64,000 bases of DNA from positions 37,167 through 101,166 of the IMG/VR virus record IMGVR_UViG_3300028801_000008. One strand, written 5' to 3'. Below the pieces are notes generated by a model. It had not been told where the DNA came from. It worked only from the letters and a program-made list of their open reading frames with translations, and searched no databases. Both the position numbers and the translations under genes were made by a program. The stretch is from a virus. Position 1 is the stretch's first letter; the number at the start of each line of letters is the position of its first letter. Of this stretch, positions 90-19,102 are shown in pieces.

Positions 90-374
90 TTAAGACTTCT
101 CATCCGGATAGTACACTTCGATCAGCTTCTGTAGGAAGTGCTGTGCTTTCTTCAGGTCTTCCAGGCCGTTCTTACCGAGGAAGCGTAATGTGTACTTGGC
201 CACCTGTCCAACCAAGTATGGCATCTTGGCATACAGATCCCAGTGCTGAATAATTTTATGACAGTGAGGACACACCGCCGACGCCTCTTGATAGTGACTA
301 CCTCCTACCTGCGTATCGTTAGCCTTGCTACTCGAAGACGTTGAATTCCGGACCTGCTTCACTACGGGTTTCAC
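90..374 (-). CDS. DUF3310 (SaV-like) small phage protein
   Basis: 94 residues. The C-terminal two thirds matches the DUF3310 pattern seen in many phages: QVGGSHYQ, a CPHCH pair, QHWDLYAK, then VGQVAKYTLRFLGKNG and a helix with DLKKAQHFL. The family is sometimes labelled a nucleotide kinase, but no P-loop is visible and the function is unproven. It is the last gene of the leftward cassette and overlaps the upstream HD gene by 47 bases. The hairpin at 31-84 follows it directly. Confidence 0.8.
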   Translation of the reverse strand: MKPVVKQVRNSTSSSSKANDTQVGGSHYQEASAVCPHCHKIIQHWDLYAKMPYLVGQVAKYTLRFLGKNGLEDLKKAQHFLQKLIEVYYPDEKS

Positions 375-906
375 GATAGATCTCCTTTATAGCTTCGTAC
401 ATGTTAGAGGCGCGCAGCGCGATGTCCAAGGGTACTTCCGTATTTACCGTGAGTGTTTCGATGTATGAACAGAATCGCTTCCAGATCAGCATGACGTTCT
501 TGTTACCTAAGGCAAGCTCACGGCAGCAATACAGCAGACCATCAAAGCAGTCAGCCAGCTTAAGGATGAGCAACTCCTCCGGATCCAACCATTGCTCATA
601 ATCCAGGTCGTACTTACGCAGCGTCTTCTGCTCCCAGTCATGGACTAGGTCAGACAGGCCCATCATGCGCTTGGCTGGAGCGCTGATGTCTGACGCTGCT
701 TGCTCGGCCAGATCATGCGTTAGCGCTGCCATAAGCAACATGGCGCTGGCTTGCGTACGACCCTCGGCATCTTTGCCGGCCAGTAAACTGCACCAAAGAG
801 CAACGCCGAACGAGTGTGACGCATCGGTGTCTGTGCGTAAGCCTGGACGTGCGTGGTAGCGAATTACACTACCGCCCTCGTAAATGAATTGCAGGAGTTC
901 TTTCAC
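328..906 (-). CDS. HD-domain phosphohydrolase (YfbR-like)
   Basis: 192 residues from a GTG at 906. That start overlaps the stop of the thymidylate-synthase-like gene as GTGA and has GGAGG five bases upstream; the frame stays open to 936. HD motifs are visible: H in ASHSFGVA, HD in ALTHDLAE, and a later D in LKLADCFD. The RYHARPG N-terminus and overall size resemble YfbR-type 5'-deoxynucleotidases, which dephosphorylate dNMPs. Next to a pyrimidine-modifying enzyme it may clear host-type or unmodified nucleotides; that role is inferred. Confidence 0.75.
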   Translation of the reverse strand: MKELLQFIYEGGSVIRYHARPGLRTDTDASHSFGVALWCSLLAGKDAEGRTQASAMLLMAALTHDLAEQAASDISAPAKRMMGLSDLVHDWEQKTLRKYDLDYEQWLDPEELLILKLADCFDGLLYCCRELALGNKNVMLIWKRFCSYIETLTVNTEVPLDIALRASNMYEAIKEIYRETRSEAGPEFNVFE

Positions 907-1994
907 TTCCGCCTCCGTTCTTTCCACTCGTAGCACGCGCGCTTCCAGTCCGGCGCGTCAATGCCATCGAGGCAAGTGTTGCTGCTGTATTCATCCTTCC
1001 ACTTTCGGAACACCCAGAACAGGAACATCGGAATGGCTACCGCATGGAAGAATGGCGTCTTGCAGGCGGGGACGTTCGCTGCAAGCTGCGTAGCTTCTGG
1101 TAATACGTCTGACGGGAACGTTGCCGGCGGTGGGGTGGCACGTATCACCTTCAGCGCCCACGGCATGAACAGCTTCAGGTCGTCGTCGAATCCTTCTGTG
1201 ATAGAGGGTCCAAGAGGTTCCAACTGATCGAGCGTAACGCACTCGTATTCAATGGCGTTCAGCTTGTCAATACTGAACTTGTCGGTATACGTATGCAGAT
1301 TGTTCGTGAACTGATAGTAACTGCCCATCGGCACACCGATACGCATCGCCATGTACTCCAACAGGAAGCTGAAGTGGACCGCGTTCGCGCCGAATGCGCC
1401 CCACATACTGTCGTTGCTGCGGTTCATGACGGTCATGTTCAGCTTGCCGGCTCGTATGGCGAAGTAAGCGTGCGTGTTGCACGGAACGGCTTTACCACCG
1501 TTGCACGCAACGCCAAGATCATCGCTGTACTGTACGCCACTTTTCGCCTCCCATTGCGGGGCGCTTGGCGCAATATCAGCGTTCCACATCGCCAATACGC
1601 AGCGCCTGCTTCCCGGATTCGACTTGAGCTCCTCCACTATGGCATCGAGCTGGTCATAGCCGAAGAATTCTCGCCAGCGCCATCCGTAAGAGTCCCACAT
1701 AGTCTTGCCATCATCTGAAAACTGCGAGTATGAGGCATTAAAGAAAACCGGAAACTCCAGTTCGTTGCTCCCCGAGAAAAACCACAACGCCTCCATCACA
1801 TGGAATACGTGGTTCGCATCGCGCGTTGGTGAATACAGCACTCGCTGCCTTGGGTCGGTATACTCGATACACACCGGCCCTGGCGCTACTAGCACTGGAC
1901 CTACTCTGGAGTCCTCTTTGATTCCACTGTGTAACAAATGCTGTAGTCCAAGTGAAAGCGCCTCATTTACGTCTCTAGCTTTGTAACTGTACAT
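903..1994 (-). CDS. thymidylate synthase-family pyrimidine (hydroxy)methylase
   Basis: 363 residues. Thymidylate synthase fold signatures: nucleophile PCNTHAY (Cys about 172), NRSND (about 191-195) and GAFGANAVHF (Asn about 204), then TNNLHTY. The GAYGANAVH-type variant is common in phages, and members make either thymidylate or 5-hydroxymethyl pyrimidine nucleotides. An Asn close to the E. coli Asn177 position favours dUMP over dCMP, but a one-residue insertion makes that alignment uncertain. ATG at 1994 has AGGAAG at good spacing; a GTG at 2000 is a weaker choice. It follows the HMUDK/alphaGPT-type gene by 25 bases, so a 5-hydroxymethyl-dUMP synthase role is inferred. Confidence 0.8.
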   Translation of the reverse strand: MYSYKARDVNEALSLGLQHLLHSGIKEDSRVGPVLVAPGPVCIEYTDPRQRVLYSPTRDANHVFHVMEALWFFSGSNELEFPVFFNASYSQFSDDGKTMWDSYGWRWREFFGYDQLDAIVEELKSNPGSRRCVLAMWNADIAPSAPQWEAKSGVQYSDDLGVACNGGKAVPCNTHAYFAIRAGKLNMTVMNRSNDSMWGAFGANAVHFSFLLEYMAMRIGVPMGSYYQFTNNLHTYTDKFSIDKLNAIEYECVTLDQLEPLGPSITEGFDDDLKLFMPWALKVIRATPPPATFPSDVLPEATQLAANVPACKTPFFHAVAIPMFLFWVFRKWKDEYSSNTCLDGIDAPDWKRACYEWKERRRK

Positions 1995-2019
1995 CTTCAC
2001 TTCCTTTCGCTGCTATGGG

Positions 2020-2892
2020 TTAATTATAAGCTTCGCCGCTGGCGCGGAACTTCTGCTTCGCTCTGCCGCCGTTGTACTTCACCTTGCAGTATTTGCTGAA
2101 TTCACACAGACAGTTCTGTAGATTCTGCGCATCCAACACTGGGCATTTCAACTTTGGCTGAGCTACCTTCATCAAATCCAGCAGCGTAGCATGCCATTCC
2201 TCTTCGTTCCAGCGCGCAGTTGGTTCTCTTCCCACGAGCCAGTTTAACCCTCTACGACTTCCTGGCCCTGACATTGCGAACGTCATCCAGTCTTCAGCCT
2301 TCTTCATAGAAGGCAGGTGCTTAATATCCGCCACGACCTGCGCACTCATGAACCCACCTCCGAAGCCGTGATGTAACATGAGCGCTTCTTGCAACGTACT
2401 AAGCTCACACCCGGTACGCACCAAGTTACCTAGCAGCTTACGGCTGTTCCACAACGGCCCAAGCACCTGGTCGGCCAAGTACGACGCCTTGGACTGTCCT
2501 TTGGTAGCACCGACGGCGTTTATCATGTATGCCCCTGTGAACGTCGCCATGCCGTCCTTCTTGCGCGCCTCCATCAGCTTCACAAACCGCTTCGGATTCC
2601 ATTTTGATGGATAACCGAGCGCTTCCAGGCTCGCCGGCAAGTTCACCAACCGTGCCAGCGCCATTGCGAAGACTACCGTGTCGTAGTCCTCCGCGTGCGG
2701 CTGTAACCAGTTTTCGTGTATACACTTAGTGACCCTGTCGTCTTCGCGACGTACGTTGGTAAAGCGGTATTCCAACAGGATAGGATCCTTCGTCCACGGA
2801 GCAGGCTTCCCAGCCAATCGCTTCTGATGTATGGACCAACGCTCGTTCACGAAGTACACGAACTCTTCAAGCCTTGGGAACTGCTTGCTCAT
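2020..2892 (-). CDS. 5-hmdU DNA kinase helical-domain / alphaGPT-PPlase-like DNA base hypermodification protein
   Basis: 290 residues, recognised as the all-helical family annotated as 5-hmdU DNA kinase helical domain or putative DNA base hypermodification protein. Landmarks in order: FVYFVNERWSI (about 11-21), KPAPWTKDPIL, YRFTNVRREDDRVT, FTGAYMINAVG, GPGSRRGLNWL and the C-terminal LCEFSKYCKV. The family acts on 5-hydroxymethyl-dU or its phosphorylated form in DNA of thymidine-hypermodifying phages. No P-loop is present, so this is the helical partner without a fused kinase. It overlaps the nucleotidyltransferase gene by 26 bases. ATG 2892 has GGAGG close upstream. Confidence 0.75.
   Translation of the reverse strand: MSKQFPRLEEFVYFVNERWSIHQKRLAGKPAPWTKDPILLEYRFTNVRREDDRVTKCIHENWLQPHAEDYDTVVFAMALARLVNLPASLEALGYPSKWNPKRFVKLMEARKKDGMATFTGAYMINAVGATKGQSKASYLADQVLGPLWNSRKLLGNLVRTGCELSTLQEALMLHHGFGGGFMSAQVVADIKHLPSMKKAEDWMTFAMSGPGSRRGLNWLVGREPTARWNEEEWHATLLDLMKVAQPKLKCPVLDAQNLQNCLCEFSKYCKVKYNGGRAKQKFRASGEAYN
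2023..2028 (-). promoter_or_regulatory. TATAAT -10-like element
   Basis: Minus-strand CTTATAATTAA at the end of the 290-residue gene, about 28 bases before the thymidylate-synthase-like start. It would allow separate expression of the last three cassette genes. No clear -35. Confidence 0.35.
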
Positions 2893-3586
2893 ACGCCTCC
2901 AGTTCAGCCGGTGTGCCTACGTGGTTGAATTCATCGGCTGCGATCACCATGGCCGTGGTCAACTGCAAATTGTTGTGGCACGGTGCCAGATAGTACTCAC
3001 CGTTAGTCATCGTACTGAGAATCACCATCTCGTAGATGGCGCGCTTGGCAAGCTCCCACGACTGGAATGCATGAACGCCGCAAGAAGCAATACCGCTTAT
3101 GCGCTGCTTCTCCACCACCTGCGTCACTAAGTGATCCTTCATGATAACGAAACTGTAGCGCTCGCTGTCATCCTTAGGACGGAAGCACAGCATAGAAGAC
3201 TGCACGCCAGACTTGAAGCAAGCCTCACTAAACTCAGAGAACTTAGCAAGCACACCACTCTTGAAGATGGTGTCACAGTCCATGACCAGCACCGGATCGG
3301 TATCGCGAATCACACCTGACGCCGCCAACAAAGACATGGCCGCACCCTTCTGCACGAACCGAATGGGCACGCGGATCGGATGCATGTTCTTCGGCGTTTG
3401 CTTGTGAAGCTCACTGTACAAATCCACCAAGCACACAACGACAGGCGTCTTGATGATTTCAGACGCCTGGACCAGCGCATGCTGTATCATCGTGCGACCG
3501 CGCGCTGGGAGCAGCGGTTTAGGCGTCATTACCCCGTTACTGACAAATCGTTCACCGCGTCCTGCCGCCAGAATAACTACTTGCAT
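2867..3586 (-). CDS. sugar-phosphate nucleotidyltransferase (GlmU/RmlA-like)
   Basis: 239 residues with the nucleotidyltransferase signature LAAGRGERF...TPKPLLP at the N-terminus (about 6-28) and VLVMDCDTIF (about 98-107) as metal/nucleotide-binding Asp motif. Such enzymes join an NTP to a phosphorylated sugar, choline or glycerol-like group to give the activated NDP donor. It overlaps the APH-fold kinase gene by 10 bases, and the pair resembles the kinase plus cytidylyl/uridylyl transferase pairs of surface-polysaccharide loci. Here they sit with a glycosyltransferase and DNA-base enzymes. The actual substrate is unknown. Confidence 0.75.
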   Translation of the reverse strand: MQVVILAAGRGERFVSNGVMTPKPLLPARGRTMIQHALVQASEIIKTPVVVCLVDLYSELHKQTPKNMHPIRVPIRFVQKGAAMSLLAASGVIRDTDPVLVMDCDTIFKSGVLAKFSEFSEACFKSGVQSSMLCFRPKDDSERYSFVIMKDHLVTQVVEKQRISGIASCGVHAFQSWELAKRAIYEMVILSTMTNGEYYLAPCHNNLQLTTAMVIAADEFNHVGTPAELEAYEQAVPKA

Positions 3587-4314
3587 GCATCCACTCTCAT
3601 TTCCGTGCGAAGTTCTTCCGCCAAATTACGCAGGCCCGATACGACGTCAATGGCCCATACACGCGCCTGCGGCTGCACACCATACAGCCGAATGATGTGC
3701 GTCAGCATGTAGTAGATACAGAGGTCCAGGTTCAATTTTTGCTCGACCAAGAACTTACGTATCATGTAACGTTCCGACTCCAGGCAAGGGCGACCGTAGT
3801 GGAAGTACGACTGCAGCAGCTTGCCGCCGTCAAGCTCGGCCTCTTGTGGCAATGGACGCGTACTAGGGTCTAGCCAATAACCGTCGCGTACGTAGTTCTC
3901 CAGGGTGGGATCACCATGTACGACCTGTGCTCCTTTGCTTTGCGTACTACCAATTCGTTCGTACCACGTCGTCAGCGCCGACCGGATAATAGGCGGAAAG
4001 CCTTCTGTGCGAGTGAACGGCTCTACTTGGACTACGTGGTGGCGACGGCGGCCCTCATAATCGTAGACATGCGCCACCGGCAGGTCCCATAAAGCAGCCA
4101 ACCGGGCCAGCGCCAACGGCAGGTCCAGTACCGGCGATGGTTCGCCCATTACCGGCATGACGTAGCCGCCAGTCGTTATACCTAGCACCGGCACAAATAC
4201 GTCCGGATAGGCGCGCATCTTAGCGCCTTGCGTCGGCACACCATGGCCACTCTTATAGATACACGGCTCTAGGGCTGCTCCGCTGTTGCGCTGAATCTTG
4301 TGGTGAATGATCAC
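3577..4314 (-). CDS. APH/choline-kinase-fold phosphotransferase
   Basis: 245 residues, GTG start at 4314 with GGGAGG six bases upstream; the start overlaps the stop of the Cys-rich mini-gene (GTGA). It carries the Brenner motif VVHGDPTLENYV (about residue 135) followed by YWLDPSTRP and LDGGKLLQS, as in aminoglycoside/choline/sugar kinases associated with polysaccharide synthesis. It would phosphorylate a small alcohol or sugar, feeding the next gene, the nucleotidyltransferase. The N-lobe is short and poorly conserved, so the substrate cannot be read from sequence. Confidence 0.65.
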   Translation of the reverse strand: MIIHHKIQRNSGAALEPCIYKSGHGVPTQGAKMRAYPDVFVPVLGITTGGYVMPVMGEPSPVLDLPLALARLAALWDLPVAHVYDYEGRRRHHVVQVEPFTRTEGFPPIIRSALTTWYERIGSTQSKGAQVVHGDPTLENYVRDGYWLDPSTRPLPQEAELDGGKLLQSYFHYGRPCLESERYMIRKFLVEQKLNLDLCIYYMLTHIIRLYGVQPQARVWAIDVVSGLRNLAEELRTEMRVDACK

Positions 4315-4478
4315 GCCGTGCCTCCCATCATCTTCCGTACGACGACGCGGTAATCCTCCGTGCCGCTCTTGTGCGCGTCCTCCACCAGTTTGCGATTACC
4401 ACGCCGCACCCACCGGTTGAAGCAGCCAAGGTTACAGAACCGATTCGCACACTTCTTCTTGCAATTTTCGCACTTCAT
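4311..4478 (-). CDS. Cys-rich mini-protein, possible zinc binder
   Basis: 55 residues. Five cysteines lie in the first 20 or so residues in a CxxC-x4-C-x4-C-x3-C arrangement, and the tail is basic. ATG overlaps the stop of the glycosyltransferase gene (ATGA), and the stop overlaps the GTG of the kinase (GTGA), which ties it into the cassette. No family is recognised. It may be an accessory metal-binding subunit. Confidence 0.6.
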   Translation of the reverse strand: MKCENCKKKCANRFCNLGCFNRWVRRGNRKLVEDAHKSGTEDYRVVVRKMMGGTA

Positions 4479-5398
4479 GCCGTCACCGCTTTCTTTGCTG
4501 CCTTCCGTACGCTTGGAACCTTGGGCTGAGCCAGAGAGGAGAGGTAAGCCTTCTTCCAGGCTACCACGACCTCCTTACGCACAGCCGTCGTGGTGTACGC
4601 GCGGTCCACCACCTTCACGAAGCCGGGGTGTAGCTTGGCCAACTCGAAGCACTGGGCGTCGCTGTACTCCATACTGCGCTCGCCGCTGCACCCTCCCGCC
4701 GCGCCGAATGTGCCGTACTCGTTGTTGAGTAGCTCGACGTAGTTGTGGCACTCATGGCCTTTACGCAACATGGACAACACCACGTGGAAGTCCTCGCGCA
4801 GACCTATGGCGTCGAAGCGAATCTTCTCTTTGAGATAGAGCTCTCGGTTGACACCGAAAGCATACATCATCCTTGCGTTCTTCTCCCACGCCGCTTTCTT
4901 CTTGTCAGAGTGACGCCGATGCGCGATGCCGATCATACCGAGGTCGTGCTCTTTACCAGCGTAGGAATCCATCTCCTGGAATAGCTTCAAGAGGACCTTG
5001 TCCTTAGGATAGCGACGCATCATCAGCGAGGTTCCAGCCGGTGCGTCCGGAGCTACGGCGTACGCCTTGCGATGCTCCTCCCACACGCGCCACTTAGCCG
5101 GGCAGCGCTCGAAGAACGCCAGGTCGTCGTCCATCATAAATAGAAACTTGCCGGCTACGTTCTTCATAATCCAGTGACGCTTCGTAGCGATGGATGTAGT
5201 GCCCTTGGCTGTAAGCACTTGGTTAGCCGGGTACAGCTTCTTCAGCGCCTTGGCTTCGTCAGGCAACGAAGCCACGAGGATGACCTCGGCCTGGAGCGCA
5301 GTCGGCAGCGCCTGGAGCGTTATCTGCTTGTTAACACGACCGTGCGTGGGGATGATGAGTGTTAGGTTTTTCAGGATCGTTCTCCTCTTACGTGGCAA
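4475..5398 (-). CDS. TET-associated-type (TAGT-like) glycosyltransferase, GT-A fold
   Basis: About 300 residues. N-terminal LTLIIPTHGRVNKQITLQAL opens a GT-A fold; KFLFMMDDDLAFF (about 86-98) supplies the DDD nucleotide-sugar/metal motif; GLREDFHVVL and a later NEYGTFGAAGG complete the pattern. The layout matches the TET/JBP-associated glycosyltransferases proposed to glycosylate hydroxymethyl-pyrimidines in phage DNA. It is the first gene of the cassette. The start is uncertain: a TTG at 5398 lacks a good Shine-Dalgarno, while AGGAGA lies just before a CTG at 5374. A terminator-like hairpin lies upstream at 5429-5450. Confidence 0.72.
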   Translation of the reverse strand: MPRKRRTILKNLTLIIPTHGRVNKQITLQALPTALQAEVILVASLPDEAKALKKLYPANQVLTAKGTTSIATKRHWIMKNVAGKFLFMMDDDLAFFERCPAKWRVWEEHRKAYAVAPDAPAGTSLMMRRYPKDKVLLKLFQEMDSYAGKEHDLGMIGIAHRRHSDKKKAAWEKNARMMYAFGVNRELYLKEKIRFDAIGLREDFHVVLSMLRKGHECHNYVELLNNEYGTFGAAGGCSGERSMEYSDAQCFELAKLHPGFVKVVDRAYTTTAVRKEVVVAWKKAYLSSLAQPKVPSVRKAAKKAVTA

Positions 5399-5419
5399 AG
5401 GCGTCTAAGACACCCGGGG

Positions 5420-5450
5420 AAATACAAAGACGCCCGATGTTCTGGGCGTC
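5420..5450 (-). terminator. rho-independent terminator-like hairpin
   Basis: A 7-bp GC-rich stem (5429-5435 with 5444-5450) is followed on the minus strand by TTTGTATTT. Its loop on the minus strand is AGAACATC, complementary to the minus-strand loop of the hairpin at 31-84. It separates the 64-residue gene at 5485 from the glycosyltransferase cassette. Confidence 0.7.
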
Positions 5451-5484
5451 TCATACTCTTCGTGTTCAGGCTATCTGTAGTGGT

Positions 5485-5679
5485 TTACTTGCTTCTAGCC
5501 GACTTGCGCGCCGCCAGAAACTTCGCATGACGCGGCGCTCGTTCGGCTCGTATGGCGTCTTCCATCTTAGAACGAGCAGACGAGCTCATTTCCTCGAAGC
5601 GACGCTTCGTAACGCCGTCAACGGTTATGGAAGGCAGGATGCCAATGCGGCGGATACGACGAGCTAGAGAGGTAGGCAT
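5485..5679 (-). CDS. hypothetical basic protein
   Basis: 64 residues, strongly basic (many Arg/Lys), predicted mostly helical, no recognised domain. ATG 5679 has AAGGA about eight bases upstream. It is followed by the terminator-like hairpin at 5429-5450. Confidence 0.6.
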   Translation of the reverse strand: MPTSLARRIRRIGILPSITVDGVTKRRFEEMSSSARSKMEDAIRAERAPRHAKFLAARKSARSK

Positions 5680-5745
5680 GATGTCAATCCTTTTCAGGCT
5701 GAGATGTGTCCGGATAACGCGCCGGACTCGCGCTACTACGCTGAA

Positions 5746-6102
5746 CTACTCGATGACGGACAGGTAGCCCTGCTTCACCAGCCACGCCACTTCCAGCTTG
5801 CGACCGCTGGGATTCAGCTTGGACTTGTCCAGCTTGGCCTGAGCCTCGCTCACGGTCTTGGAGCCGATGATGGCCTCAACTTGACCGTAGCAGAAGCTGC
5901 CTTCGCGGGGCAACGACTCCGACTTCAACGTTACTAACGCCTTGATCTTGCGATCGGCGGCTGCGGCGCGCGGTGCCTTGTCGGCCTTCTTGGTTACGGT
6001 TGCCTTGACCTTGGTCGTGACAGCGTTCTTCGCGGTCTTCTTGGCTGTTCCAGCGGGAGGTGCGAATTTCTGCTTCTTGGTTTCAACGGTTGCAGTGGTC
6101 AT
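5746..6102 (-). CDS. predicted internal-start product (C-terminal 118 residues of the gene above)
   Basis: An ATG at 6102, in frame inside the 519-codon gene, is preceded by GCAAGGAGAACATC, one of the better Shine-Dalgarno contexts in the region. The product would begin MTTATVETKK, with a basic Lys/Ala linker and the C-terminal globular part. Either two proteins are made from one frame, or this is the only real start and the upstream frame is fortuitous; the first seems more likely. Confidence 0.45.
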   Translation of the reverse strand: MTTATVETKKQKFAPPAGTAKKTAKNAVTTKVKATVTKKADKAPRAAAADRKIKALVTLKSESLPREGSFCYGQVEAIIGSKTVSEAQAKLDKSKLNPSGRKLEVAWLVKQGYLSVIE

Positions 6103-7305
6103 GATGTTCTCCTTGCAGTGATCTAACACCGCTGTAAGGTGGCGTTCAGCCACGGACGAAACTACAACTCCAGCCGTAATGGGGTGTAGTAACTGATTTA
6201 CGTCTCTCACTAGATCGCTACTTGTGATCTGACGCAGTGTTCTCAGAACTTCTGTCGGTACTACTCCGGCAGCAACGCGACTCCCGTTATTATACACGCA
6301 AATCGCGCCCTGCGAATTGGGTTTTTCCAACTGTAGCAAAACGATACCATTATTGGGATCTTCCAGCAGGAATATCTCGTCCAGGTTGACGTAGATATCA
6401 GCATCCGACTTCGGCTGCGCCATTGGCATGTTCGCCGTTTCGCGCTCCGCACGCTTGACTCGTGCCGCCAGTTCCAGCTTGAAATCGGCGCTGTCCTTGG
6501 CTTCTTGCTTCTTGTTCATCTTCTTGGGCGCGTCCAGGATCGGCTTGCCATCGAATACGACGCGGGTGTGTACCGTCTTCCGAAGCTCGTCAGCGATTAC
6601 AGCCTTCTCTACCTTCGCTACCGCGCGCTCCGTCTTGCTGGCACTCTTCGCGAGCTCCATGCACTTCGCGCTGAATGCCGACTCCATACCGGCCACGGAC
6701 GACTTCGCGATGCCGAGCGCGACGTAGAACTCGGTCAGCACTTTGTTGACGCCGCTCTCCTTGACCAGTACCTTGTCAGTCTTACGTAGCAGCTTCAGAA
6801 GCTGCACGCGCGCCTTGTAGTTGGCGTCGCCAGCCAGATCGCTGATGCGATACTTGCCAGCCGTCAGCTTACGTAGCGCGTCCAGCGCGGCCACGACGTT
6901 GCTAGGTAACGGAGCCGGTCCCTTAGCGTCGTACATGGTCTTTACGAATTGCTGAGCGTTCTTGCCTTCAGCCGTGGAGCCGTCCGCAAACTTCACCTGC
7001 CACGCGGTGTTGATGCTGGACGAACTGCCAGCGTGCGTGAATAGAAGCGCCGCACCGTCTTCGCGTGTATAGCCATGAGCGGTATTGTTATCTACCTCCT
7101 CAGTGCGGCTGTATACGAATCCGGCCTTGACGAACGCCTGAGTCAGCGGCGTTACGGGCGCGGTGGGAGCGAGCGACTTATTGTGGATGTCGTGCGTGGC
7201 TACGACTGTTTCGCCCTTAGCCGTCTTGATCAACTTCTTGCCAACAGCCTTGACAGCTTTCGCGCTCGGTGCTGCCTTGATGTTCTTCAGGATTGACTTT
7301 GCCAT
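5746..7305 (-). CDS. large hypothetical protein with internal in-frame start
   Basis: 519 residues from ATG 7305 (a GTG at 7317 is also open). It is Ala/Lys-rich with no recognised domain. The basic N-terminus and a Lys/Ala-rich linker (about 400-440) flank a C-terminal segment ending WLVKQGYLSVIE, which resembles a small winged-helix-like fold. An in-frame ATG at 6102 has AAGGAG six bases upstream and would give a separate 118-residue C-terminal product. Its upstream neighbour at 7307 ends two bases before the start. Confidence 0.7.
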   Translation of the reverse strand: MAKSILKNIKAAPSAKAVKAVGKKLIKTAKGETVVATHDIHNKSLAPTAPVTPLTQAFVKAGFVYSRTEEVDNNTAHGYTREDGAALLFTHAGSSSSINTAWQVKFADGSTAEGKNAQQFVKTMYDAKGPAPLPSNVVAALDALRKLTAGKYRISDLAGDANYKARVQLLKLLRKTDKVLVKESGVNKVLTEFYVALGIAKSSVAGMESAFSAKCMELAKSASKTERAVAKVEKAVIADELRKTVHTRVVFDGKPILDAPKKMNKKQEAKDSADFKLELAARVKRAERETANMPMAQPKSDADIYVNLDEIFLLEDPNNGIVLLQLEKPNSQGAICVYNNGSRVAAGVVPTEVLRTLRQITSSDLVRDVNQLLHPITAGVVVSSVAERHLTAVLDHCKENIMTTATVETKKQKFAPPAGTAKKTAKNAVTTKVKATVTKKADKAPRAAAADRKIKALVTLKSESLPREGSFCYGQVEAIIGSKTVSEAQAKLDKSKLNPSGRKLEVAWLVKQGYLSVIE

Positions 7306-7306
7306 G

Positions 7307-7462
7307 TTAGCGTCCACCCTTCGCGATGGCGGCTTCGGTGAACTGGATCATGCGGGCGAGGTTCTCAGCCTTCTTGAACTCTTCCTGCGCGATGCGGCTG
7401 ATGAGTGCTGACTTGAGAAGTTCGAGGGAGTTCTTGCGCTTCTGTTGCATGGACTGTGGCAT
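7307..7462 (-). CDS. small hypothetical helical protein
   Basis: 51 residues beginning MPQSMQQKRKNSLELLKSAL, amphipathic helical, no known family. ATG 7462 has AAGGAG seven bases upstream. Its stop lies immediately before the ATG of the 519-residue gene, implying coupled translation. Confidence 0.65.
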   Translation of the reverse strand: MPQSMQQKRKNSLELLKSALISRIAQEEFKKAENLARMIQFTEAAIAKGGR

Positions 7463-7528
7463 TTTGTTTCTCCTTAGCGGCCTGTACCGCTATATCTACG
7501 AAGGTTAGAGAGGCGTGAAGACGAGCTA

Positions 7529-7912
7529 CTAGCGGCTGGAAGCAATGAACGACTGCGCGGCGTCCAGGGTGGTGAATGCAACCAGCGTGGCACCAGCGTG
7601 AAGGTGAGCGTACCACGTACCGTTAGGAGAGCAATCGACCGTCGCGATCAGCTTGCCGGCCGAACGGAACTCGTACGTAGTGGGCGACGCCTTGTACCAA
7701 CCGTTACCTACCACTACGAGCTTCGCACCCGGCTTGATCGGACCGTCGTTCGCGAAGAGCGACGCGGTAACGGGCTGAGCGGTAGGCACTACGAATGACG
7801 TAGACGGCGCGGTGGTGGCGAGCGACACCGGCTTGACGGTCGGGGTCTGTGACAGACCGATGGAGGCGATTCCAACTAGGGCGGCGATTGTGAGTTTATC
7901 GGTGAGGTTCAT
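7529..7912 (-). CDS. exported hypothetical protein
   Basis: 127 residues. The N-terminus has a short charged start and a hydrophobic stretch (about 6-22) typical of a Sec signal, then a Pro/Thr/Ala-rich linker and a beta-rich C-terminal part. ATG 7912 has AAAGGAG six bases upstream. It is probably periplasmic or surface-exposed; the function is unknown. Confidence 0.65.
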   Translation of the reverse strand: MNLTDKLTIAALVGIASIGLSQTPTVKPVSLATTAPSTSFVVPTAQPVTASLFANDGPIKPGAKLVVVGNGWYKASPTTYEFRSAGKLIATVDCSPNGTWYAHLHAGATLVAFTTLDAAQSFIASSR

Positions 7913-7950
7913 TTGAGGCTCCTTTTGAGTGGCTTCTTGCCACTGAAATG

Positions 7951-7956
7951 ATTATA
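7951..7956 (-). promoter_or_regulatory. TATAAT -10-like element
   Basis: Minus-strand TATAATC in the gap between the DUF2786 gene and the exported-protein gene, about 40 bases before the latter's start. No clear -35 box is visible. Confidence 0.4.
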
Positions 7957-8019
7957 CTCCAGAAAACAGAGAATCTGAAAACTATTTTTCTGGAGTGCAA
8001 CTGGCCCAATTTCAACGAC

Positions 8020-9051
8020 TTAGCTTAGATTTCCAGCAGTCTTACCAGACTTCAGCTGGTCGTCAAGGCCGATTTTCTCCGCCGTTGCCGACCCGGCCCG
8101 ATACGCTCCGTGGTCACGTCGCGAAGCTTCACGATACGCCTTGCGATCCTGAGCCTCCCAATACCGTTCGCTGTACTTAGCGCGCCGTTCCGCTTCACGC
8201 GCTTCCGCTTTCAGACGCTTGGCTTTCTGCGCAGGCGTTTCCAGTGCCAATTTCGCTTCCAGTTCCGCGAGCTCCTTGGCTTCGCGTTCAGCGTTCAACT
8301 TGTCCTGCGCGGCCCAACGCTCTTCGTTCGCCTTCATACGTGCGGCGCGCGCCGCCCACGCACCCGCGCCGTTCTGGAAGTCGTAGTTCCCGATCTCCTC
8401 AGCGGTAGCGACGTTCCGTAACGCGATGGCCGTGGTGTAAGCAGCTTCTCCCTGAGTGGCGTAATCCGCTTTCTTCATGGCTTCGGCCTTCGCCTGGATG
8501 CGCTGAATCAGACGATCAGAGCAGCCCTCGCGCCAGCTGCTAGCCGACCGGCTGAGTCGCTCTTTCTGTTCGTACGGTAGTAGACGTTCAATCGTGTCCA
8601 TCAAGTAGTCCACCATCATCAAGACCGACATCGTGTTGGCGGTGCGTCCAAGCACCTTATGACGCTTCACCCAACGCTTCTGCATGGCCTCGTCATCATC
8701 GTACTTCCGTTTGCTCTTCGGAATGTAGAGCTCTTCCTGTACCTCGGCCGTCCAGTAGATGCAGTAGTTCGCCTCGGCCAAAGCGCGCACAAGATTCCGC
8801 TGCCACTGGTACATGGCTGAACGCTTCGTTACGGCGTAATCACGCTTCGCCATGGCGTCGTCCGGCGTGTTCGTACCGCCCTTGACGACTTTGTCTTGTA
8901 CGGTGGCGAGGTCCAGGTTGTACTGTGCTAGAAGCTCTTGAGCCTTCGCCATGGCGGCGGCGGCTTCCACTTCGTTACCAGCGGCGCGCTCTGCGAGTTG
9001 GAGGAGGAGTTGAATCTTGCGGACGATGTTTTCTGAGATCACTTCAGGCAT
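8020..9051 (-). CDS. DUF2786 protein
   Basis: 343 residues. The N-terminus (VRKIQLLLQLAERAAG ... MAKAQELLAQYNLD, about 10-50) is a clear DUF2786 domain. The middle part, with HKVLGRTANTMSV and EGCSDRLIQRI, matches the companion domain. The C-terminal third is a long charged coiled coil rich in Ala/Glu/Arg. DUF2786 proteins are common in phages and their biochemistry is unknown. ATG 9051 has AAGGAG upstream. Confidence 0.8.
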   Translation of the reverse strand: MPEVISENIVRKIQLLLQLAERAAGNEVEAAAAMAKAQELLAQYNLDLATVQDKVVKGGTNTPDDAMAKRDYAVTKRSAMYQWQRNLVRALAEANYCIYWTAEVQEELYIPKSKRKYDDDEAMQKRWVKRHKVLGRTANTMSVLMMVDYLMDTIERLLPYEQKERLSRSASSWREGCSDRLIQRIQAKAEAMKKADYATQGEAAYTTAIALRNVATAEEIGNYDFQNGAGAWAARAARMKANEERWAAQDKLNAEREAKELAELEAKLALETPAQKAKRLKAEAREAERRAKYSERYWEAQDRKAYREASRRDHGAYRAGSATAEKIGLDDQLKSGKTAGNLS

Positions 9052-9080
9052 TGGGTAGCGCTCCTTGTGCGCTGATTAGG

Positions 9081-9086
9081 ATTATA
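9081..9086 (-). promoter_or_regulatory. TATAAT -10-like element overlapping a stop codon
   Basis: Minus-strand TATAAT whose TAA is the stop codon of the 62-residue gene at 9082. It lies about 30 bases before the DUF2786 start. No convincing -35 is seen. Confidence 0.4.
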
Positions 9087-9270
9087 GCTCGTTTTCTGGA
9101 ACTACGACTTTCTCCAGAAAATCTGGATTCGCGAACACCAACCGGCCATCCGCTTTGTGCCGAATCGCCAAAAGCCCGTCATCCTCCAGACGACCATTCA
9201 CTACGACCGCCTGGAACGACGTTCCATTGGGCGCTGTATACACGACCTCAGTCCCACGATCCGGTGTCAT
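9082..9270 (-). CDS. small hypothetical beta-barrel-like protein
   Basis: 62 residues, Val/Gly-rich with an alternating pattern suggesting an SH3/KOW-like barrel; no family assigned. ATG 9270 overlaps the stop of the upstream gene (ATGA). Confidence 0.6.
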   Translation of the reverse strand: MTPDRGTEVVYTAPNGTSFQAVVVNGRLEDDGLLAIRHKADGRLVFANPDFLEKVVVPENEL

Positions 9271-9551
9271 CCCGCCCTCCTCAGCGCCGCGCGGAACAGG
9301 TCGTCGAACGTCGTCCAGCCGTTGCCGACCACCTCAGTTACCGCACGCTGCGCTACCTTCTTCTTGTAACCGAGATTCATCAACGCGCTGATCACATCGT
9401 CGGTCAACGTGGAATGCTCTACGCGCTGCGTGCGTTCCACTTTGAGCTCAGCCGTAATCAGTGGGCGCTTCTTCGCTTGATGCAGGCGGTAGATCGCCAG
9501 CCACAGCAGCCACATCGTGAGTATGTTCGTTACGAATAGTAGGAAGATCAT
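9267..9551 (-). CDS. membrane-anchored protein with RuvA C-terminal-like (UBA-type) domain
   Basis: 94 residues from ATG 9551 (GGAG six bases upstream, ATGA overlap with the previous gene). Residues 1-20 are a hydrophobic membrane segment (MIFLLFVTNILTMWLLW). The C-terminal half has DVISALMNLGYKKKVAQRAV then TFDDLFRAAL, the three-helix pattern of RuvA domain III. In RuvA this domain contacts RuvB. A membrane-tethered version might recruit or inhibit host RuvB; this is inference. Confidence 0.6.
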   Translation of the reverse strand: MIFLLFVTNILTMWLLWLAIYRLHQAKKRPLITAELKVERTQRVEHSTLTDDVISALMNLGYKKKVAQRAVTEVVGNGWTTFDDLFRAALRRAG

Positions 9552-9739
9552 CGCCGTCTCCACTCATTCAGTGCCAACCGCACAAAGTACGCCGTCTTCA
9601 CGCCGTACTGCGTTTGAAGTTCGTGGAGGGTCGTGGTCATAGTCGCAGCGTGCTTATCGCTGGAAAGCGTGATTTCTTGTCCATGCGGTATGATCAGGTT
9701 GTACTCCGTGCCGTTGACGACCACGCGTTGTTTAGCCAT
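9548..9739 (-). CDS. small hypothetical protein
   Basis: 63 residues: a short beta-rich N-terminus and a C-terminal helix ending RLALNEWRRR. No known family. Its start overlaps the end of the 59-residue gene by eight bases. Confidence 0.6.
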   Translation of the reverse strand: MAKQRVVVNGTEYNLIIPHGQEITLSSDKHAATMTTTLHELQTQYGVKTAYFVRLALNEWRRR

Positions 9740-9911
9740 GGAGGAACTCCCTCTTCGTTGGCTGTACCAGCCGCGCGTTCTTTCCGCCGATGCGGATGTA
9801 CGCGTCCTCTACAGTGGACCGCCACTTGTCAACTTCGAATGGCGAATCCAGTACGCGCGCTAGGACGACTTCAAGCTCTTCCAAGGTGATTGGATCGCTC
9901 AAGAGTTTCAT
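9732..9911 (-). CDS. small hypothetical acidic helical protein
   Basis: 59 residues beginning MKLLSDPITLEELEVVLARV, no known family. ATG 9911 overlaps the upstream stop (ATGA), and its end overlaps the next start. Coding character is good despite the short length. Confidence 0.6.
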   Translation of the reverse strand: MKLLSDPITLEELEVVLARVLDSPFEVDKWRSTVEDAYIRIGGKNARLVQPTKREFLHG

Positions 9912-10138
9912 GCAAACCCCTTGTACTCCGAGAGATCCAAACGCTCCGGTTCGCGGTAGAACTTCTTACAATCGCTGCAGAATCCGCTGGATGGTAGCTT
10001 CCGATGATGCGTTGGGCACGTTGGATATTGCTCCCAATGCGGCGCGCACGACGAACAGAAGTCGCGCATAGAGTGGCCGGCAAGACCGTCGTTGGTAACG
10101 CCGGGGCAAGGAACCATGACGGAGAATGGCTTACTCAT
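9908..10138 (-). CDS. small Cys-rich zinc-ribbon-like protein
   Basis: 76 residues from ATG 10138 (ATGA overlap with the previous stop). It holds CSSC, TCPTHH and CSDC clusters, suggesting one or two zinc sites. Function unknown; probably a nucleic-acid or protein-binding adaptor. Confidence 0.6.
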   Translation of the reverse strand: MSKPFSVMVPCPGVTNDGLAGHSMRDFCSSCAPHWEQYPTCPTHHRKLPSSGFCSDCKKFYREPERLDLSEYKGFA

Positions 10139-11763: not shown

Positions 11764-11769
11764 ATTATA
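11764..11769 (-). promoter_or_regulatory. TATAAT -10-like element overlapping a stop codon
   Basis: Minus-strand GCTATAATT; its TAA ends the HNH endonuclease gene. It lies about 35 bases before the next start. Confidence 0.35.
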
Positions 11770-12220
11770 GCGCCTTCGCTCTTGCTGCTTTATTTATCGC
11801 TCTGGTGATGTGGCCAAGCTTCACAGCGGCAGACTTCGCTGCGAGCTCTTCTTTAGTCCACACTTTCTTCGCGTAAGCATCCTTTATACGCTTCTTCTGT
11901 GCTTTGTGAAACTTCGGATCGGCCCACATACTTCTAGATGATTCAGCTTTCTTAGCACGCATTTCAGACGTCCACTCTACCTGTCGTTTTCTACCCTTGC
12001 GAATCATGTCACGAACATTGTCAAGCTGCGTACCAAGAAAATGATGCGTATCCACGATACATTGCGGTTGATCACATTTATGGCAAACGTATATGTGACT
12101 GGGTACGTAGCCATGACGTAGAATGTAAACGCGTCTGGCTACATTTCGCGAAGGATGAAGACGACACTTGCCTACTTTCGTAGCTTCGCGTAAGTATTGT
12201 GCTTCAGTTTTACTGCTCAC
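11765..12220 (-). CDS. HNH homing endonuclease with NUMOD-like tail
   Basis: 151 residues, GTG start overlapping the helicase stop (GTGA). The HNH core VCHKCDQPQCIVDTHHFLGT followed by DNVRDMIRKGR (about 55-90) is the typical phage HNH_3 pattern. The Lys/Ala-rich tail with MWADPKFHKAQKKRI resembles NUMOD DNA-binding repeats, as also seen in the two GIY-YIG genes here. It is likely a free-standing homing endonuclease between unrelated genes. Confidence 0.8.
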   Translation of the reverse strand: MSSKTEAQYLREATKVGKCRLHPSRNVARRVYILRHGYVPSHIYVCHKCDQPQCIVDTHHFLGTQLDNVRDMIRKGRKRQVEWTSEMRAKKAESSRSMWADPKFHKAQKKRIKDAYAKKVWTKEELAAKSAAVKLGHITRAINKAARAKAL

Positions 12221-15705: not shown

Positions 15706-17685
15706 TTAATCCTGCCATTTTGTCAAAGTCCCCCAATTAACACCAGATTCGCCTTCCGACAACATGGGAACGTCGGTGGCGATACTACGCATACAATCTT
15801 GCATTATTTTCTGTTCTTCTTTCATTGCTTTAGCAGGTGCACTGAAATTAACTTCGTCATACACAGTGACGACGAATCTGCTATTCTTCTTGGCTTCGTT
15901 ATAACGTATCAATGTTTCTTTCGTTACATCAGCTCCGCTACCTTGCATGAGGTAGTTGAGAAGTTTATATGAAAATGTCATGTCTCTGCCATACAGAGGA
16001 CTGTACTTCGGCTCTTCACAATAGTACAGACGTGACCCAAACGTGCGAATCGGCAAGCCTTCATCCGAGAGCGCCTTCAAACGATTGTCCAGTTCCTTGA
16101 TCGATGGCACAGCCGCGTTGATAGAAGCCTGGATGATCTGCGCAATAGGCTTCTCTTCATCTAGTAGCTGTAGAAGCTGCATCAGGCCGGTTATACCCTG
16201 GCCATACAGACGACCGAACACGCAACTCTTGGCAGTGTCACGGTCGAATCCTTCGCGTAAACACGCTTCAATCAAACGCCGTTCTACTTCTGCACGCACC
16301 AGTTCATGGATGTCGTATTTGCGTTCTGCGTGAAATTTGCCACCAACGCATTGTTTACCTACAGGTGCGCCGCACTTAGAGCATGGCAAATCTATTTGGG
16401 CAGATAAGAAACCTGCCATAACGGGTCCTTCTTCAAAGTGGCCGAACAATCTCAATTCTTGTTGATCGAAATCCCTTTTGCCCCACCGCTGACCCTTATC
16501 CGGTAAGCAGTAACTACGTACGTACGGCAATTCTGGAACCTTCAAGAATGCTGGATGGACGTAACCGGCAGAAGCTGCGCGCTTCCATTTCTTCGGAATA
16601 TTTAAGAAGTTAGGCTTTGAGCAAATGATGCGACCGCTGCGCGCTCCTCCTGTATCGTTGTTACCCTTCGGACTGCGCACCTGCGACCAGTTAGGGTGAA
16701 TGGTACCCTTGCCGGCTGTACCAAGTTCCAACCAAGGCTTGATAAACATCGAGATGGACGTACTCATCTGACCGCGATACTGCAGGGCTTGATACACCTT
16801 CGGGTCTTTGAACTTATTCAACGTAAGTGTCTTCTTACTCACCGACAGATGGCCCTTGGCTGTCTTCTTAAAGTCGCTTACGATTCCTTTATTGTAAAGC
16901 GCCTCGCCAAGCTGCCGATCACTGTCGATGTTCTCAATACCCAGCTTCTTGCGCAGCCAGACATCGGTCTTCTCTACGCCAGCTATCATCGCCGGCAAGT
17001 CACGCTCTAGGCCATTCATGTCCACGCGCATCCCCACCCGCTCGTTCTCCAGCAGTATTGGCATGAGCTTCAATTCACGTTGATACGCTTCCAGCATTCC
17101 GGACTCGACGATATACGGGTAGATCTTATTGAACAACCGACCCATGCGCGTGAGATCGCCTTTGTGGTAGGGCTTGACAATTCGATAAGGCGCTTCGCAG
17201 ATATACGCACCCCATGTGCTGGGCTTCTTACGCGCCGCCTCGATGTTGGCTAGGATCCACTCCTTCAGCTTGTCCTGCTCCTCAGGCGCAATCCCTAGTA
17301 TGCGCTGGGCCGATTCCTTCAACGCTAGAGACGGAGCATGAGGGTTCTCGAGGAAGAGAAGATACATAGTATCGTGACGCTTCCGCCAATCCGGGATTGG
17401 TAGTTCCCAATGTATTTCGGCGACGTCCAGATCGAATTTCTCGTTCTGCCAAAGCACTGGATACTTGCTTTCCTGTGCCTTCTTGAGCTCGCCGCGCGCT
17501 TCCTTCTCTGTGCAATTGTTGTCGAACGCACGCGTTCCATCCCCATGACCCCATGCCATGAGTTTGTAATCTGACTGATCGGGCCACTTAAGAGCGAGCG
17601 AACCCGGCTTCGGTGGGTACTTTGGCCGCGACTGAATACCCTTCGTTTCAAAATCTGCGAGAATCACCTGCGGCGCACGTGGCAT
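15706..17685 (-). CDS. family A DNA polymerase with 3'-5' exonuclease domain and zinc-ribbon insertion
   Basis: 659 residues. The exonuclease begins VILADFETKG (D-x-E) with WQNEKFDLDV. The polymerase has motif A KRDFDQQELRLFGHF, motif B RDTAKSCVFGRLYGQG and motif C VVTVYDEVNFS, with Tyr where His is usual in HDE. Between A and B, CSKCGAPVGKQC...H looks like an inserted zinc ribbon in the fingers region. It would be the replicative enzyme. The start MPRAPQV directly follows the dCTP-deaminase-like gene's stop. Confidence 0.9.
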   Translation of the reverse strand: MPRAPQVILADFETKGIQSRPKYPPKPGSLALKWPDQSDYKLMAWGHGDGTRAFDNNCTEKEARGELKKAQESKYPVLWQNEKFDLDVAEIHWELPIPDWRKRHDTMYLLFLENPHAPSLALKESAQRILGIAPEEQDKLKEWILANIEAARKKPSTWGAYICEAPYRIVKPYHKGDLTRMGRLFNKIYPYIVESGMLEAYQRELKLMPILLENERVGMRVDMNGLERDLPAMIAGVEKTDVWLRKKLGIENIDSDRQLGEALYNKGIVSDFKKTAKGHLSVSKKTLTLNKFKDPKVYQALQYRGQMSTSISMFIKPWLELGTAGKGTIHPNWSQVRSPKGNNDTGGARSGRIICSKPNFLNIPKKWKRAASAGYVHPAFLKVPELPYVRSYCLPDKGQRWGKRDFDQQELRLFGHFEEGPVMAGFLSAQIDLPCSKCGAPVGKQCVGGKFHAERKYDIHELVRAEVERRLIEACLREGFDRDTAKSCVFGRLYGQGITGLMQLLQLLDEEKPIAQIIQASINAAVPSIKELDNRLKALSDEGLPIRTFGSRLYYCEEPKYSPLYGRDMTFSYKLLNYLMQGSGADVTKETLIRYNEAKKNSRFVVTVYDEVNFSAPAKAMKEEQKIMQDCMRSIATDVPMLSEGESGVNWGTLTKWQD

Positions 17686-18117
17686 CTACAGCGCCCCCGT
17701 AATGGCCACTTGGCCCTGGTACTTGCCGCGATAAGGCTCGGTGGCGCTGGTAAGCTTCGCGAAGATGACGTGGGCGAATCGCTGTCCAACAGGCACGTAA
17801 CCCGGCGCGCCGAACTTGGCTATCTCCAGGGTGATACTGCCCTGGAAGCCAGCGTCTATCACAGTCGGTGGCATGATGAAGCCCATACGCGCCCAAGTGG
17901 ACCGTATTTGCACGAACGCCATAAGGTCGTCAGGCATGGTTATAATCTCGCGCGTACGACCTAACGTGAATCCACCTGCGGCCAACAAGTCGCTCTCCAC
18001 CTGACTCACAATCATGTCAATGCCGTTTTGCTGAAACTGATCGTCAGCCAATGCTGGCTCGAACCGTAGCGCACCCCGCTCTACGTACTTCATAAGATCT
18101 TGCCGCGATAGAATCAA
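17686..18117 (-). CDS. dCTP deaminase/dUTPase-family protein
   Basis: 143 residues from a TTG at 18117 giving the family's typical N-terminus MILSRQDLMKYVERG; GGAG lies six bases upstream and TTGA overlaps the preceding gene's stop. Core motifs: QIRSTWARMGF, IDAGFQGSITLEI and VPVGQRFAHVIF. The trimeric family makes dUMP or dUTP from dCTP, or dUMP from dUTP. Supplying dUMP would feed the thymidylate-synthase-like enzyme at 903-1994. The open frame upstream of 18117 is a shadow of neighbouring genes. Confidence 0.8.
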   Translation of the reverse strand: MILSRQDLMKYVERGALRFEPALADDQFQQNGIDMIVSQVESDLLAAGGFTLGRTREIITMPDDLMAFVQIRSTWARMGFIMPPTVIDAGFQGSITLEIAKFGAPGYVPVGQRFAHVIFAKLTSATEPYRGKYQGQVAITGAL

Positions 18118-18218
18118 AACAATCTCCGCTTCGTAAATAGTGCAGGGCCAAAAACCAACGCAAAAGGAATCAAACAAATGATGAGGAAGATGCGCGGGAT
18201 CAGTAAGATCAGTTTCAT
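18114..18218 (-). CDS. 34-residue membrane peptide
   Basis: MKLILLIPRIFLIICLIPFA starts a single hydrophobic segment followed by a basic end (TKRRLF). ATG 18218 has AAAGGAG four bases upstream; its stop overlaps the TTG of the dCTP-deaminase-like gene. One of several such coupled membrane peptides in this genome. Confidence 0.6.
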   Translation of the reverse strand: MKLILLIPRIFLIICLIPFALVFGPALFTKRRLF

Positions 18219-18283
18219 AGTACTCCTTTCTTCGCCGTACTTGGCCAGCAGTGAGGGCTACCGACCAAGTACGACTTAGAATT

Positions 18284-19102
18284 CTACCGCCGTGTAGTCT
18301 TCTTGCCGGCGAACTTGGAATTGGACTTCGACGCAGCCGGAGCCTTCTTCGCGGTCTTATCGGCCACGGAGAACGGCTTCTGAAGTTGCTCCTGCACCTT
18401 GAGCACACGCTTCTCAAGAGCCTGGAGAACGTCGTCGTCGTCAATCAGAGACACCATCTTGAACTCCAGACGAATCTGTGTCTTCGGATCATCGTAACTG
18501 GCAATCTCCGTCACCACGGCCCACGGCGGACGACCATACTCCTCTTCCAACAGGTCGGTGTACTTCTTGTAATGGTTCAGGTTGGTAGGGCTGACACCGG
18601 CATTGGCCATCTCCGCAGCGGCGACGCTGTCAGCGTCCTCGGTGGCGTCATTGCCGGTCAGCAGGCCGAGACGAATAGTATTGCCGCATGCCTTGCCCTT
18701 GCCAACGCGCGCCGTACCGAACTGGTTCTTTTCACAATCGGCGCACTTCACAGCTTGCTTGTCAGGTGCCGACGGGTGAGGAGCCATCTCTGGGTCGTCC
18801 GAGATGACAGAGAACGCGTAGCAATCCGGCGGCAGCGGATTGGACGCATCAAACGGCTGCTCGTTCCAGCGATTGAGCGCGCAGCTGCCGACAATGACGC
18901 ACTCCAGCTTGCCGCCCTTGACTTCGACGTCGCCGATAGAGATGCGTCCACGGCCGAACTTAATACTGACGCCGCCGACTCCGATGTTCTTGGTCTGTTC
19001 CTTTGTTTCTTTGGCGTACTTCGCAAATTTTTCCGTCCAAGGAATTATCGCCGTGGACGTTGTCTTCTTACCTTTGGCTGCTGTCTTCTTTACTACTGGC
19101 AT
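18284..19102 (-). CDS. conserved phage protein near the polymerase, possibly ssDNA-binding
   Basis: 272 residues. Basic N-terminus, a central segment with CADCEKNQFGTARVGKGKAC (zinc-like Cys set), and a C-terminal basic tail AASKSNSKFAGKKTTRR. This pattern (Cys pair, N-x-FG, GKGKAC-N) recurs in phage proteins encoded beside DNA polymerase. A single-strand DNA-binding role is a guess from context and the charged tail. Confidence 0.6.
   Translation of the reverse strand: MPVVKKTAAKGKKTTSTAIIPWTEKFAKYAKETKEQTKNIGVGGVSIKFGRGRISIGDVEVKGGKLECVIVGSCALNRWNEQPFDASNPLPPDCYAFSVISDDPEMAPHPSAPDKQAVKCADCEKNQFGTARVGKGKACGNTIRLGLLTGNDATEDADSVAAAEMANAGVSPTNLNHYKKYTDLLEEEYGRPPWAVVTEIASYDDPKTQIRLEFKMVSLIDDDDVLQALEKRVLKVQEQLQKPFSVADKTAKKAPAASKSNSKFAGKKTTRR

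Follow-up and report, generated by a model that had tools for sequence, protein, structure and literature searches.

A conserved phage gene cassette predicted to glycosylate thymine positions in DNA with a phage-activated sugar

The DNA of Pseudomonas phage M6 is thymidine-modified (PMC6449724), and HTVC023P-type Pelagiphages encode a thymidylate synthase (TS) together with an aGPT-PPlase1 protein, a deoxynucleotidase and a beta-glucosyl-HMC-alpha-glucosyltransferase (PMC9599517). The DNA of RB69 is arabinosylated, and its ORF053c/052c has been proposed to help make the sugar donor (PMC6024577); a sugar kinase and an NTP-transferase were reported in a related arabinosylation module in 2026 (PMC13390438). 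Here we analyse a stretch of 64,000 nucleotides (the window), the last 64 kb (37167-101166) of the 101,166-base virus contig IMGVR_UViG_3300028801_000008, which carries on its minus strand, at 90-5398, a tightly coupled operon of eight mostly overlapping open reading frames (ORFs). This operon is probably, though by no means certainly, a cassette with which the phage glycosylates its DNA at thymine positions: 5-hydroxymethyldeoxyuridine (5-hmdU) would be put into DNA and would there receive a sugar that the phage itself activates.

The genes are transcribed in the order TET-associated glycosyltransferase (TAGT), 55-residue cysteine ORF, APH-like kinase, nucleotidyltransferase, PF18723 protein, TS-family enzyme, HD protein and DUF3310 protein, with junctions of -4, -4, -10, -26, +19, -34 and -47 bp (Table 1). 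A sequence-only reading of the window had described eight coupled genes over this interval, and all eight were recovered there. Pfam cut-offs were passed by the TAGT, nucleotidyltransferase, PF18723, TS-family, HD and DUF3310 proteins, with concordant PHROGs assignments; together with the kinase, assigned by motif and bridging homologues, seven of the eight products could be placed in families. The earlier assignments to the TS family, HD phosphohydrolases and sugar nucleotidyltransferases hold (PF00303, PF12917 and PF12804/PF00483). The two proteins to whose families that reading had tied its proposal, the 290-residue protein and the glycosyltransferase, fall in PF18723 and in the TAGT family PF20691, both of them hypermodification families.

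In a scan led by the nucleotidyltransferase, the order TAGT, APH-like kinase, nucleotidyltransferase, PF18723, TS, HD, DUF3310 was found complete in the window and in our loci L010, L159, L160 and L162/L163. Protein identity between the window and these four lineages ranges from 39 to 74% by gene and is highest for the TAGT (69-74%). Because seven of the eight genes keep their order in four further viral lineages, a chance arrangement is excluded. The 55-residue ORF was rejected as a core part: in L010, L159 and L162/L163 the frames of the TAGT and the kinase touch or overlap, leaving it no room. The TAGTs of the cassette loci form a single clade with a support of 100. The cassette is thus coherent and conserved, with parts that all belong to known families, and can be described as a thymidine hypermodification variant in which glycosylation would replace the kinase/amino-acid branch. 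Being conserved and self-sufficient, it is directly testable.

The first step would fall to the TS homologue, which is 42% identical to M6 gp58. The catalytic Cys and Asn177 (E. coli numbering) are retained, position 147 is Asn, RSND stands in place of RSCD, and W80 has been lost; E. coli ThyA, by contrast, has His147 and Cys168. Across all 38 TAGT-type loci compared, the Cys, Asn147, the Asn of RSND and Asn177 are invariant. An Asn at 177 gives specificity for dUMP, an Asp for dCMP (PMC8670742). By sequence, the closest PDB entry is 5b6d, a CMP 5-hydroxymethylase (1.2e-17). All features by which a phage dUMP hydroxymethylase is recognised (TS family, catalytic Cys, Asn177 and hydroxymethylase-type substitutions) are present, and we predict that the protein is a dUMP 5-hydroxymethylase. 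The PHROG matched by the TAGT, phrog_842, is named after a T-even-type hydroxymethylcytosine (hmC) glucosyltransferase, and the modified base could in principle be cytosine (hmC), as for the T-even TAGTs. However, Asn177 in the TS-family protein and the core held in common with the thymidine-modified phage M6 (PMC6449724) make a cytosine target most improbable.

The 290-residue protein scores 142.7 bits against PF18723 (gathering cut-off 25 bits). It had been called an HMUDK/alphaGPT-PPlase-type base protein; the helical-partner half of that description stands, whereas its identification with a 5-hmdU kinase had to be rejected. No Walker A or P-loop was found in the protein, a Pfam model search of the 101-kb contig found no PF18748 5-hmdU kinase, and PF18724, the amino-acid:DNA transferase (ADDT), was likewise not found in the contig. 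The absence of PF18748 and PF18724 from the contig leaves the protein as the helical partner alone. Its AlphaFold2 model (pLDDT 94.9) has as best PDB folds the Pseudomonas phage 5-PmdU glycinyltransferase 8z2n/8z2m (probability 0.84-0.90, TM-score 0.41, E 0.27-0.35), and its BFVD matches are amino acid:DNA transferases and the SP10 5-hmdU kinase F8WQ30, a 637-residue protein in which a PF18723 domain is fused with the kinase. We infer that the PF18723 protein is a base-recognition subunit serving either a kinase or a glycosyltransferase.

The genomic neighbourhoods of PF18723 genes point the same way. From the best 80 IMG/VR loci of at least 577 profile matches, and including reference phages, 83 loci were scored; they represent the best matches rather than a random draw, with near-copies among them. 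A TAGT lies nearby at 40 of them and a P-loop kinase at 33, both at none and neither at 10. Two independent checks gave the same picture. Pfam models run on 50 whole contigs gave 29 with a TAGT and 17 with the kinase, with no overlap. A text search for Walker A motifs detected small ORFs with a P-loop at 30 of the 33 kinase loci, and four matches at the 40 TAGT loci, which resemble a helicase fragment or spurious frames. On the PF18723 tree the kinase/TAGT label switches at least nine times; for the TAGT, at least four changes are required even when well-supported branches alone are counted. Because a kinase or a TAGT, but never both, adjoins the gene at most of these 83 loci, PF18723 can be read as the shared base-recognition partner of alternative transferases. 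The alternation makes a family named after a kinase a candidate shared subunit, and provides a simple sequence rule for which phages would phosphorylate or aminoacylate thymine and which would glycosylate it. The cassette PF18723 proteins lie within a group supported at 99/96, together with three kinase-type loci (L025, L027 and L028). An approximately unbiased (AU) test did not reject a single clade for them (p 0.164); a swap between kinase and TAGT inside this group is therefore likely but not proven. P-loop proteins of the 5-hmdU DNA kinase type are publicly labelled 'terminase small subunit' in M6 (gp54, L011 8686-9249) and PAKlein3 (L017 6195-6764).

The TAGT exceeds the PF20691 cut-off (55.3 versus 27.5 bits), its DDD motif is invariant in five TAGTs, and it is predicted to glycosylate 5-hmdU in DNA. 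Between it and the thymine core lie the kinase and nucleotidyltransferase. The kinase gave no direct Pfam, PHROG or NCBIfam match, nor was any found for it in phages, plasmids and GTDB genomes. Its assignment to the APH fold by the sequence-only reading is nevertheless supported by the catalytic loop HGDxxxxN and the DP(S/N) metal site that follows, both invariant in the five lineages within a kept pattern VHGDPTLEN...W-DPS-R...EAE-D--K-LQS, and by a bridging homologue in L020 (MT837550). The latter, an LPG_synthase_TM-APH fusion paired with a related nucleotidyltransferase, carries HGDxTxEN..DPxT..D.GKLLQS in its C-terminal half and aligns with the kinase by hhalign (probability 90); it matches PF01636 at 6.8e-4, below the gathering score (19.9 versus 23.2 bits). 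L020 is an 'UNVERIFIED: Bacteriophage sp.' scaffold resembling a bacterial surface-polysaccharide locus (GT2-like, epimerase-like, nucleotidyltransferase, LPG_synthase_TM-APH fusion and HAD-like genes). The same pairing, without PF18723, occurs in a Deltaproteobacteria metagenome-assembled genome (L113). A neighbouring protein in cyanophage DSL-LC03 was rejected as a kinase homologue, and searches of the PDB with profiles of the kinase, TAGT and PF18723 proteins returned chance matches only, such as an ERAD ligase sharing little beyond HGDPT.

The nucleotidyltransferase exceeds its Pfam cut-offs (PF00483, 40.7 versus 21.2 bits; PF12804, 52.8 versus 27 bits), is 46-59% identical among the five lineages and has as nearest NCBIfam models Arch_glmU (1.7e-18) and MurU (1.9e-9, 37.7 versus 250 bits), both under cut-off. 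It is predicted to be of the sugar-1-phosphate type, and the sugar donor is probably made by phage enzymes. APH-fold kinases with NTP_transferases also make up choline-activation sets, and donor genes of their own are missing from many TAGT-type loci; the pair might then activate a non-sugar alcohol (a LicA/LicC-like route to CDP-choline or CDP-ethanolamine) while the TAGT separately adds host UDP-glucose. We consider this unlikely, given that the conserved cassette showed no phospho-alcohol transferase, that the nearest NCBIfam models are sugar-1-phosphate nucleotidyltransferases and that the RB69 precedent is a sugar.

APH-fold kinases usually act on small molecules. This counts against a different role for the kinase, in which it would replace the P-loop 5-hmdU DNA kinase and the phosphorylated 5-hmdU in DNA would then be elaborated by the nucleotidyltransferase and TAGT. 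Such a role would fit a PF18723 gene that normally stands beside a kinase or TAGT, in a contig where no P-loop kinase was detected. Other TAGT-type loci, however, lack both kinases, so that a DNA kinase is not needed with a TAGT, and the same pair accompanies polysaccharide-type genes in L020 and occurs in L113 in the absence of PF18723; we hold the substitution to be quite unlikely. A reading in which the TAGT, kinase and nucleotidyltransferase merely adjoin the thymine core, and instead modify a surface glycan of virion or host, is very unlikely. In bacteria, relatives of the nucleotidyltransferase do occur alongside HAD phosphatases in surface-polysaccharide-type loci, but the cassette genes overlap in conserved order in five lineages, and TAGTs stand beside PF18723 and TS in 40 loci, alternating with the DNA kinase.

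In the glycosylation pathway that we favour, the TS homologue, fed by dCTP deaminase, would make 5-hydroxymethyl-dUMP, the HD nucleotidase would trim competing nucleotides, and the phage polymerase would incorporate hmdUTP. From a free sugar or a sugar phosphate, the APH-type kinase and nucleotidyltransferase would make an NDP-sugar, and the PF18723 protein would recognise 5-hmdU in DNA and present it to the TAGT for glycosylation. The outcome would be a glycosylated 5-hmdU resembling base J, possibly bearing a sugar other than glucose. That the genes might make 5-hmdU, activate a group and attach it was already the proposal of the sequence-only reading, and is supported by its fit to residues, gene order and relatives. 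We put forward more tentatively that PF18723 is an exchangeable base-presenting subunit, used with a P-loop DNA kinase or a glycosyltransferase, and that the glycosylation branch with its own sugar-activating pair would here yield thymine carrying a non-glucose sugar.

Several observations weigh against this interpretation. L166 (IMGVR_UViG_3300028379_000016, 2981-9933), found via the nucleotidyltransferase, holds PF18723, two TAGTs, a PF18748 kinase, APH-like and HAD-like genes, a nucleotidyltransferase, a methyltransferase-like ORF and a TS; it rules out a strict exclusivity of kinase and TAGT, and is possibly a composite phospho/glyco thymine modification system. PF18723 and ADDT resemble each other in structure only (TM-score 0.41), and their sequence profiles gave no match. 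The AlphaFold2 model of the kinase, from two sequences, failed (pLDDT 38), its APH fold being supported by motifs and bridging homologues, and its direct hhalign comparison with RB69 ORF052c is weak (probability 29). Unlike in RB69, no SIS_2 sugar isomerase was found in the four cassette contigs searched, and the sugar may for that reason come from the host pool. Finally, the kinase/nucleotidyltransferase pair is missing from most TAGT-type loci, and is therefore not generally required for the use of a TAGT.

Table 1. Genes of the operon and of the nearby nucleotide and replication functions, in window coordinates, with supporting matches (E-values) and motifs.
Feature	Position	Strand	Evidence
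TAGT (TET-associated) GT-A-like glycosyltransferase	4475..5398	-	PF20691 1.1e-14; phrog_842 2.6e-43; MMDDDL motif
55-aa Cys-rich ORF, coupled to both neighbours	4311..4478	-	PF24453 only 0.083
APH-fold small-molecule kinase, predicted sugar kinase, 245 aa	3577..4314	-	VVHGDPTLEN...WLDPSTR...EAELDGGKLLQS
Sugar-1-phosphate nucleotidyltransferase-type enzyme	2867..3586	-	PF12804 6.8e-14, PF00483 2.7e-10; LAAGRGERF, PKPL, MDCD
PF18723 HMUDK_hel / aGPT-PPlase1 protein, 290 aa	2020..2892	-	PF18723 1.9e-41
TS-family enzyme, predicted dUMP 5-hydroxymethylase	903..2000	-	PF00303 5.6e-18; phrog_5131 3e-94
YfbR-like HD 5'-deoxynucleotidase, predicted pyrimidine deoxynucleotide pool trimming	328..936	-	PF12917 5.8e-9; M6 gp59 homologue
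DUF3310 protein, conserved operon end	90..374	-	PF11753 2.1e-7; phrog_236 5.1e-17; kept in five lineages
dCTP deaminase, outside 90-5398, beside DNA polymerase	17686..18444	-	phrog_1663 1.5e-30
DNA polymerase	15706..17685	-	phrog_17 1e-56

Outside the operon, the dCTP deaminase likely supplies dUMP, and the adjacent DNA polymerase likely incorporates hmdUTP. A dUTPase-like ORF adjoins PF18723, TAGT and TS at L066 (8096-8587) and at five other TAGT-type loci, consistent with dUMP supply. HNH-like ORFs lie at 11765-12220 of the window and at 7806-8474 in L010; the latter sits between the PF18723 and TS genes, which suggests that the operon has been visited by a homing endonuclease. The locus is present at 100% identity on three other IMG/VR contigs. 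Because the first and last ~1.3 kb of the contig overlap each other at 93-95% identity, it is probably a wrapped, nearly complete genome of ~99.8 kb, assembled from variants; IMG/VR lists its ends as linear.

Thymidine hypermodification (5-NedU) in M6/Yuavirus has in common with the window the PF18723 protein, the TS-family hydroxymethylase, the YfbR-like HD protein, DUF3310 and a nearby DNA polymerase. M6 alone has the PF18748 kinase (gp54; its PF18723 protein is gp55), the ADDT (gp51), a radical SAM protein, a PLP enzyme and Nmad5, where the window has instead the TAGT, APH kinase and nucleotidyltransferase. The sequence-only reading held its layers of genes to be not usually seen as one block. 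This is partly right: TS, aGPT-PPlase1, deoxynucleotidase and glucosyltransferase already stand together in the Pelagiphages (PMC9599517), and a nucleotidyltransferase and kinase in RB69 (PMC6024577). The HTVC023P-type Pelagiphages thus have the core and a glucosyltransferase, with the kinase unmentioned, but a dedicated sugar-activating pair is not reported (PMC9599517). To our knowledge, the accessible literature holds no earlier description of this gene combination or of the alternation rule; an earlier account of the alternation is possible. Brevibacterium phage LuckyBarnes (NC_047851, gp38-gp41) likewise has a TS, two TAGTs and an adjacent PF18723-type protein without a PF18748 kinase, but is strongly diverged and lacks the kinase/nucleotidyltransferase pair.

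For the pair itself, AmgK-MurU sugar salvage follows the same logic of an APH-fold anomeric kinase with an NTP_transferase, although the MurU model matches the window nucleotidyltransferase far under cut-off. In the RB69/Mosigvirus module (ORF055c, ORF053c/052c, ORF003c) an NTP_transferase and an APH-like kinase are likewise proposed for the DNA-sugar donor. Of these, ORF053c belongs to the NTP_transferases. ORF052c (L167 4095-5135) carries an APH-type loop, VIHGDPNFSN...FIDPRGYFG, with weak matches to APH-clan families, so that ORF053c/052c looks like a nucleotidyltransferase combined with a sugar kinase. The kinase and nucleotidyltransferase of the window look like a split and diverged counterpart of ORF053c/052c. 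The RB69 module differs in its cytosine target, its pair held in one protein, its isomerases and its GT-B-type transferase. The pair in the window gives a second system, besides the RB69-type phages for which the question is open, in which the synthesis of non-host sugar donors by phages can be studied.

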